Shown in pieces: positions 9,034 to 10,827 of a stretch of DNA of 32,906 bases. The position numbers and the translations under genes were made by a program. A model generated the notes under the pieces. It made no database searches. It was not told where the DNA came from and saw only the letters and a list, made by a program, of their open reading frames with translations. The number at the start of each line of letters is the position of its first letter. The stretch's first letter is position 1. Origin of the DNA: Actinomycetota bacterium (GTDB lineage: Bacteria > Actinomycetota > Acidimicrobiia > Acidimicrobiales > Ilumatobacteraceae); NCBI GenBank assembly GCA_009927665.1, contig RFMM01000133.1, forward strand, positions 1 through 32,906, in the 5' to 3' direction.

Positions 9034-10488
<1,455 letters not shown>

Positions 10489-10578
10489 GGCTGACCCCGA
10501 TTCTTTCAGTGACTACGAATTTTTTTGCGTCGGGCTGGGGCCTGCTGGCACCAATCGGGTCAGCCGACGACGAAAAGC
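10489..10578 (-). promoter_or_regulatory. Structured ahcY leader, candidate riboswitch
   Basis: The leader can form two exclusive stems. In the closed form, the arm at 10553-10565 pairs with 10489-10502 over 13 base pairs with one bulged G. This stem ends directly at the ahcY ATG and buries the only SD-like run (CGGGGU). In the open form, 10561-10569 pairs with 10528-10537 over 9 pairs with one bulged C. That uses up half of the first arm and frees the ribosome-binding region. A small GCC-AGCA-GGC hairpin and an A-rich stretch (seven A) lie inside. The pairing was read directly from the sequence. A ligand such as SAH or SAM is inference from the downstream gene. I could not match it to the SAH riboswitch consensus I remember. 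Confidence 0.6.
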
Positions 10579-10827
10579 CTACTCGTTGAAGGTTGGGGCA
10601 AGGTGCTCTGCTGCGACCTTGGCCATGAGACGAGCGTGTTCTGCATCAGTCACCGAAGTGGCTTCGTCGATGAGCATGACAGGGATGCCGTCGCGCACGT
10701 CATAGCGGCGCTGCAGTCGTGGGTTGTACAACGCGTCTTCGTCGGCGAAGTAGTAGAGCGGGCCCTTGTCTTGCGGGCAGGCGAGAATTGAAAGCAGCGT
10801 GGCGTCGAGTGTGGGCACGACCCCCAC
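10579..10827 (-). CDS. Trm112-like (YcaR/UPF0434) small protein
   Basis: This small protein of about 80 residues belongs to the Trm112/YcaR group. In eukaryotes Trm112 activates several methyltransferases; in bacteria the role is poorly known. Visible signatures are LLSILACPQDKGPLYYF and YDVRDGIPVMLIDEA. Classical members carry CPxC plus a second Cys pair that binds zinc. Here the second Cys is Asp (CPQD) and the later pair is missing, so zinc binding is probably lost, as I recall for many actinobacterial members. GTG 10827 starts 1 bp after the manB stop; GTG 10818 gives a tidier N-terminus. It lies between manB and the ahcY leader. Confidence 0.85.
   Translation of the reverse strand: MGVVPTLDATLLSILACPQDKGPLYYFADEDALYNPRLQRRYDVRDGIPVMLIDEATSVTDAEHARLMAKVAAEHLAPTFNE

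Follow-up and report, generated by a model that had tools for sequence, protein, structure and literature searches.

AhcY removes SAH, a toxic by-product of methylation. The SAH riboswitch folds into a pseudoknot that is larger than the element described here. According to a 2022 review, six riboswitch classes respond to SAM or SAH, and a single SAH-sensing class among them is tied exclusively to SAH recycling genes (PMC9971707), and the SAM/SAH riboswitch is located upstream of metK in Rhodobacterales (PMC7367207). Text searches on riboswitches of ahcY or sahH from Actinobacteria or Acidimicrobiia returned no earlier description; they covered main texts, and a listing elsewhere may have gone unnoticed. 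ahcY is not mentioned in the main texts of two large RNA discovery papers, and the portions available of a 2010 paper describe ahcY leaders for SAM-Chlorobi only.

Here we consider the ahcY leader in the window, i.e. the whole 32,906-nt stretch of DNA that was analysed. None of the Rfam 15 families, all of which were scanned, matched over the motif, whether in the window or in 29 related loci, even with E allowed up to 1-10; assignment to a known Rfam class was dropped. The SAH riboswitch covariance model likewise found nothing in the window or the 29 loci at E up to 1, and the SAM/SAH, SAM-I to SAM-VI and SAM-Chlorobi models (Rfam 15) had no match over the motif.

Two exclusive folds in the ahcY leader

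The preliminary description of this leader had proposed, on the minus strand, a stem that hides the start region and a second pairing that would free it. Both are present. The first comprises 13 pairs with one bulge, between GGCUGACCCGAUU (10565-10553) and AAUCGGGGUCAGCC (10502-10489); it abuts the AUG at 10488 and encloses GGGG (10498-10495), the sole SD-like run. The second joins CGUCGGCUG (10569-10561) with CAGCCCGACG (10537-10528). The same bases are claimed by both stems, which are mutually exclusive as had been proposed, and this arrangement is kept in the genus. The alternative stem did exist as described but had to be redrawn as part of a larger motif, consisting of P1 and a P2 hairpin (10537-10552) that had been overlooked (Table 1). 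C10537 has two possible partners in the window, G10552 within P2 or G10561 within P1.

Table 1. Features of the window leader and its gene
Feature	Coordinates	Strand	Remarks
Candidate -10-like box TAGGCT	10576..10581	-	Predicts a transcription start near 10569; based on TANNNT enrichment
P1 5′ strand CGUCGGCUG	10561..10569	-	Doubles as 5′ part of the sequestering arm; covariation
J1/2 bulge ACCCGAUU	10553..10560	-	5′ side only; consensus nnnnGAn; pairs with the start region in the alternative state
P2 hairpin GGUGCC-AGCA-GGCCCC	10537..10552	-	U-C mismatch; one inner pair significant against a tree-based null
P1 3′ strand AGCCCGACG	10528..10536	-	One pyrimidine bulged
Spacer	10503..10527	-	Neither sequence nor length conserved
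3′ sequestering arm AAUCGGGGUCAGCC	10489..10502	-	Contains SD-like GGGG 10495-10498; partner is 10553-10565
ahcY (adenosylhomocysteinase), regulated gene	9034..10488	-	TIGR00936, 624 bits; Pfam and NCBIfam

The window contains a single occurrence of the motif pattern, against none expected from shuffled sequence. The leader has a folding energy of -33.6 kcal/mol, which is only moderately lower than that of shuffles (z -2.0; 7/200 as good), so that one leader alone proves little. A transcription terminator was looked for in the window leader and none was found, and a generic promoter scan detected no full sigma-70 site. The gene preceding ahcY is Trm112-like (10579-10827, ending at 10579), and its stop codon is overlapped by the inferred ahcY -10 box (10576-10581).

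Conservation of the motif and its link to ahcY

A covariance model was built from 22 sequences and run on 298 genomes of Acidimicrobiales; 106 of them yielded matches with E no higher than 0.1, the weaker ones including chance matches. Of the 70 places with the highest scores, 65 have the motif upstream of ahcY and on its strand, with 2-178 nt separating its end from the aligned start of the protein; it thus precedes an SAH recycling gene, the location characteristic of the SAH riboswitch. A strict pattern search of a species-representative genome collection gave at least 58 matches in Acidimicrobiia, all before ahcY among the matches listed, and in one further listed match from this class the locus was too short to tell the gene. 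Judging by the named close matches, the window's own genome also belongs to Acidimicrobiia. At least 22 strict-pattern matches fell outside Acidimicrobiia; none of those among the matches listed preceded ahcY, and they were treated as chance. Every credible match in a phylum scan of 396 genomes was within Acidimicrobiales, the sole match outside the class (G353) having no ahcY nearby and being treated as chance. Four weak matches away from ahcY (L115, L117, L120, L121) had no sensible leader context and were set aside. As far as seen, the class is restricted to this order, where ahcY genes lacking the motif are a minority. From sequence comparison, the existence of an RNA element selectively associated with ahcY is solid.

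In nine genomes (G042-G045, G049, G055, G056, G060 and G293) every AhcY is of a divergent type, with 42-46% identity and an alignment split into two pieces; for all of these except G293 no motif above 26 bits was found among the matches listed. Five MAG records titled Bifidobacterium breve (L126, L131, L141, L168, L200) contain the motif together with an ahcY 69-86% identical to that of the window, and because of this their labels look wrong.

The motif spans ~38 nt and is composed of P1 (GGCUG/CAGCC), a 5′ bulge and P2 (GGnG[CU]C-[AU]Gnn-G[GA]CCCC, with one mismatch). The P1 core is lengthened by pairs that differ between lineages, and the bulge of ~7-12 nt has room for an extra hairpin in some genomes. 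In three ahcY leaders (L017, L037 and L050, from G029, G026 and G051) a hairpin-like stretch is inserted in the P1-P2 bulge, reminiscent of riboswitches with optional stems. The element GGGCUGA-n-GGnGCCAGnnGGCCCCAGCCC was seen upstream of ahcY in congeners and in distant relatives, well beyond the genus.

In an alignment of 85 sequences, whose fitting to the covariance model biases the figures in favour of pairing, 91% of cells were paired and double changes were observed in 8 of 11 pairs, a result reached by none of 500 shuffles. With 100 sequences and an R-scape-like test against a tree-based null, the middle inner P2 pair (C-G, U-A, U-G, G-C) was exceeded in 0/300 simulated alignments. The top four of 1128 column pairs were all structural, the other three being individually not significant. 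P1 varies little, and its covariation is therefore not significant for any single pair. In family f23 the inner P2 pairs are replaced (GGCGC/GCGCC) with the fold kept. A loop-bulge pseudoknot (CUGA/UCAG) noticed by eye was dropped, as the bulge has no change matching the loop A-to-U. Conservation and compensating changes among relatives, by which the preliminary description proposed to check its stems, were therefore both found, and the leader contains a conserved, structured RNA backed by covariation, as is looked for in a riboswitch, with a single pair individually significant.

Inverted repeats such as these, lying directly after an inferred -10 box, might instead constitute the DNA operator of a transcription factor, and the repressor SahR acts on ahcY in some Proteobacteria (PMC4239095). 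However, G-U and U-G pairs are frequent in both P1 and P2; these keep RNA pairing and not a DNA palindrome, which argues for RNA, and the half-site spacing varies through bulge insertions. An operator is hardly credible here.

Coupling between the motif and the start region

Counting TANNNT in 8-nt bins over 55 divergent leaders gave 45 occurrences in the two bins that lie 9-24 nt ahead of the motif and 0-6 in every other bin. A -10-like box just upstream in most leaders would place the motif at the mRNA 5′ end, the probable transcription start being at P1 or immediately upstream of it. A start inside the 3′ arm had been named as a possible objection to the switch; the predicted start lies instead upstream of the 5′ arm, judging from -10-like boxes only.

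In 13 species of the window's genus, the 5′ stretch GGCUGACCCGA and the 3′ arm GGGGTCAG[CT]C-ATG (in RNA, GGGGUCAGYC adjoining AUG) are invariant, and the spacer between motif and AUG ranges over 39-77 nt and is unalignable. The window pairing is proved comparatively by this persistence of both arms beside an unalignable spacer. Folding computations place the free ensemble of the window leader ~11 kcal/mol below the motif-folded ensemble, and the region from -14 to +3 is calculated to be 9% unpaired in the former and 59% with the motif folded.

Across the order, motifs and downstream parts were exchanged between the 55 divergent leaders in 15 rounds. Forcing the motif increased start-region accessibility by 0.116 in native leaders versus 0.063 (sd 0.011) in swapped ones, and by 0.099 versus 0.055 (sd 0.012) when the window's genus was left out. 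The motif was also calculated to form stronger duplexes with the start region in native than in permuted pairs. Outside the genus this coupling is a statistical average and is weak in many single leaders. In several lineages the pairing partner has changed along with the start region, examples being CAUGGGUG with CACCCAUG in L096 and GGCGGGCU with AGCCCGCC in L025, the trace that would be expected of a translational ON switch.

Taken together, these computations tie an expression platform to the aptamer by exclusive pairing, another attribute of a riboswitch. The earlier reading of the leader as a translational switch gains support from the exclusive start-codon pairing kept in the genus and, order-wide, from native aptamer/start-region combinations that switch accessibility better than swapped ones; at the level of sequence, the switch mechanism is well supported. 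Stems that hide a start codon do act as RNA thermometers too, and that of the window is stable. Even so, a ligand-free thermometer or plain repressive hairpin is very improbable, since a thermometer has no need of a second fold kept throughout the order, in which a loop G is invariant and a bulge GA conserved, or of an association with one particular enzyme.

Candidate ligand and relation to known riboswitches

In the mechanism that we propose, the 5′ end of the ahcY mRNA would form a compact ~38-nt aptamer (P1, 5′ bulge, P2 hairpin) of a class absent from Rfam. With no ligand, the P1 5′ strand and the bulge would pair with the ribosome-binding site and start region, blocking translation. On binding of the ligand, most likely SAH, the aptamer would fold and withdraw the P1 5′ strand, freeing the start region for translation of ahcY. 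The net effect would be a translational ON switch by which excess SAH is answered with more SAH hydrolase. Both the binding of a small molecule and the ON polarity are predictions. Because the sequestered state is ~11 kcal/mol more stable in the window leader, a ligand would need to take effect while the RNA is still being transcribed, a point against the proposal.

Only one confident copy is known away from ahcY. This well-formed motif (L110, G293:C17:36950-37003, minus strand; model R2, 35.9 bits) is followed by a gene for adenosine deaminase, and the ahcY genes of the same genome, which belong to a different type (42-45% identity), lack a motif match. At its E-value about one chance match is expected across all genomes searched; the gene that it precedes and the place where it lies make a chance origin less probable, although this copy stands alone. 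Other members of this genome's family (f45) yielded no further confident copy, just matches at E 0.2-1. Adenosine deaminase removes a product of SAH hydrolysis, and removal of adenosine pulls that hydrolysis forward. Both enzymes would thus be wanted when SAH accumulates, which favours SAH as the ligand.

The same copy bears on the possibility that the conserved hairpin controls translation by binding a protein, for instance AhcY. Protein sites, too, typically take the form of a short hairpin whose loop bases do not vary, and autoregulation would agree with the link to a single gene; yet a copy before the unrelated adenosine deaminase gene does not suit a simple autoregulatory circuit, and conserved unpaired bulge bases with an alternative start-region pairing are typical of an aptamer with its expression platform. 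We consider a protein site decidedly unlikely.

For a riboswitch, the adenosine deaminase copy fits adenosine as well as SAH. That the same RNA responds to a metabolite other than SAH (adenosine, SAM, homocysteine or methylthioadenosine) is nevertheless the lesser prospect: confident copies precede only ahcY and the one deaminase gene, with no SAM synthetase or methionine gene seen, and the class described as exclusive to SAH recycling genes is the SAH-sensing one (PMC9971707). Taken individually, SAH is somewhat favoured, adenosine is quite unlikely and SAM more unlikely still. We regard it as quite probable that a new class, order-wide in Acidimicrobiales, provides a ~38-nt hairpin aptamer for SAH or adenosine that switches on ahcY and, in one genome, adenosine deaminase. 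It also seems reasonably probable that the ahcY leader is a translational ON riboswitch of a class absent from Rfam, with SAH as its most likely ligand. In any case the motif gives a defined RNA that can be tested directly, in an order that is widespread although poorly cultured; if the proposal is true, it would also offer a compact sensor for methyltransferase assays.

Among described RNAs, the SAM-Chlorobi motif is similar in being a candidate RNA from leaders of operons with metK and ahcY (PMC2864571); it is described as confined to Chlorobi, and the Acidimicrobiales motif has no Infernal match to it. SAM-VI and SAM-III are likewise translational switches of SAM metabolism, and SAM-VI also occurs in Actinomycetota (Bifidobacterium, PMC6914780), but both are larger folds with several conserved junctions, and neither has an Infernal match to the motif. 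The SAM/SAH riboswitch shares small size and translational control; it differs in being an H-type pseudoknot with the SD within the pseudoknot helix, where binding represses (PMC7367207). The SAH riboswitch (Rfam SAH_riboswitch; Wang et al. 2008) resembles the motif in its location before ahcY, whereas it was described in Proteobacteria (PMC4239095) and the Acidimicrobiales motif is a bulged hairpin. If our reading is true, this hairpin would be a second, smaller and unrelated SAH aptamer, pointing to convergent evolution.
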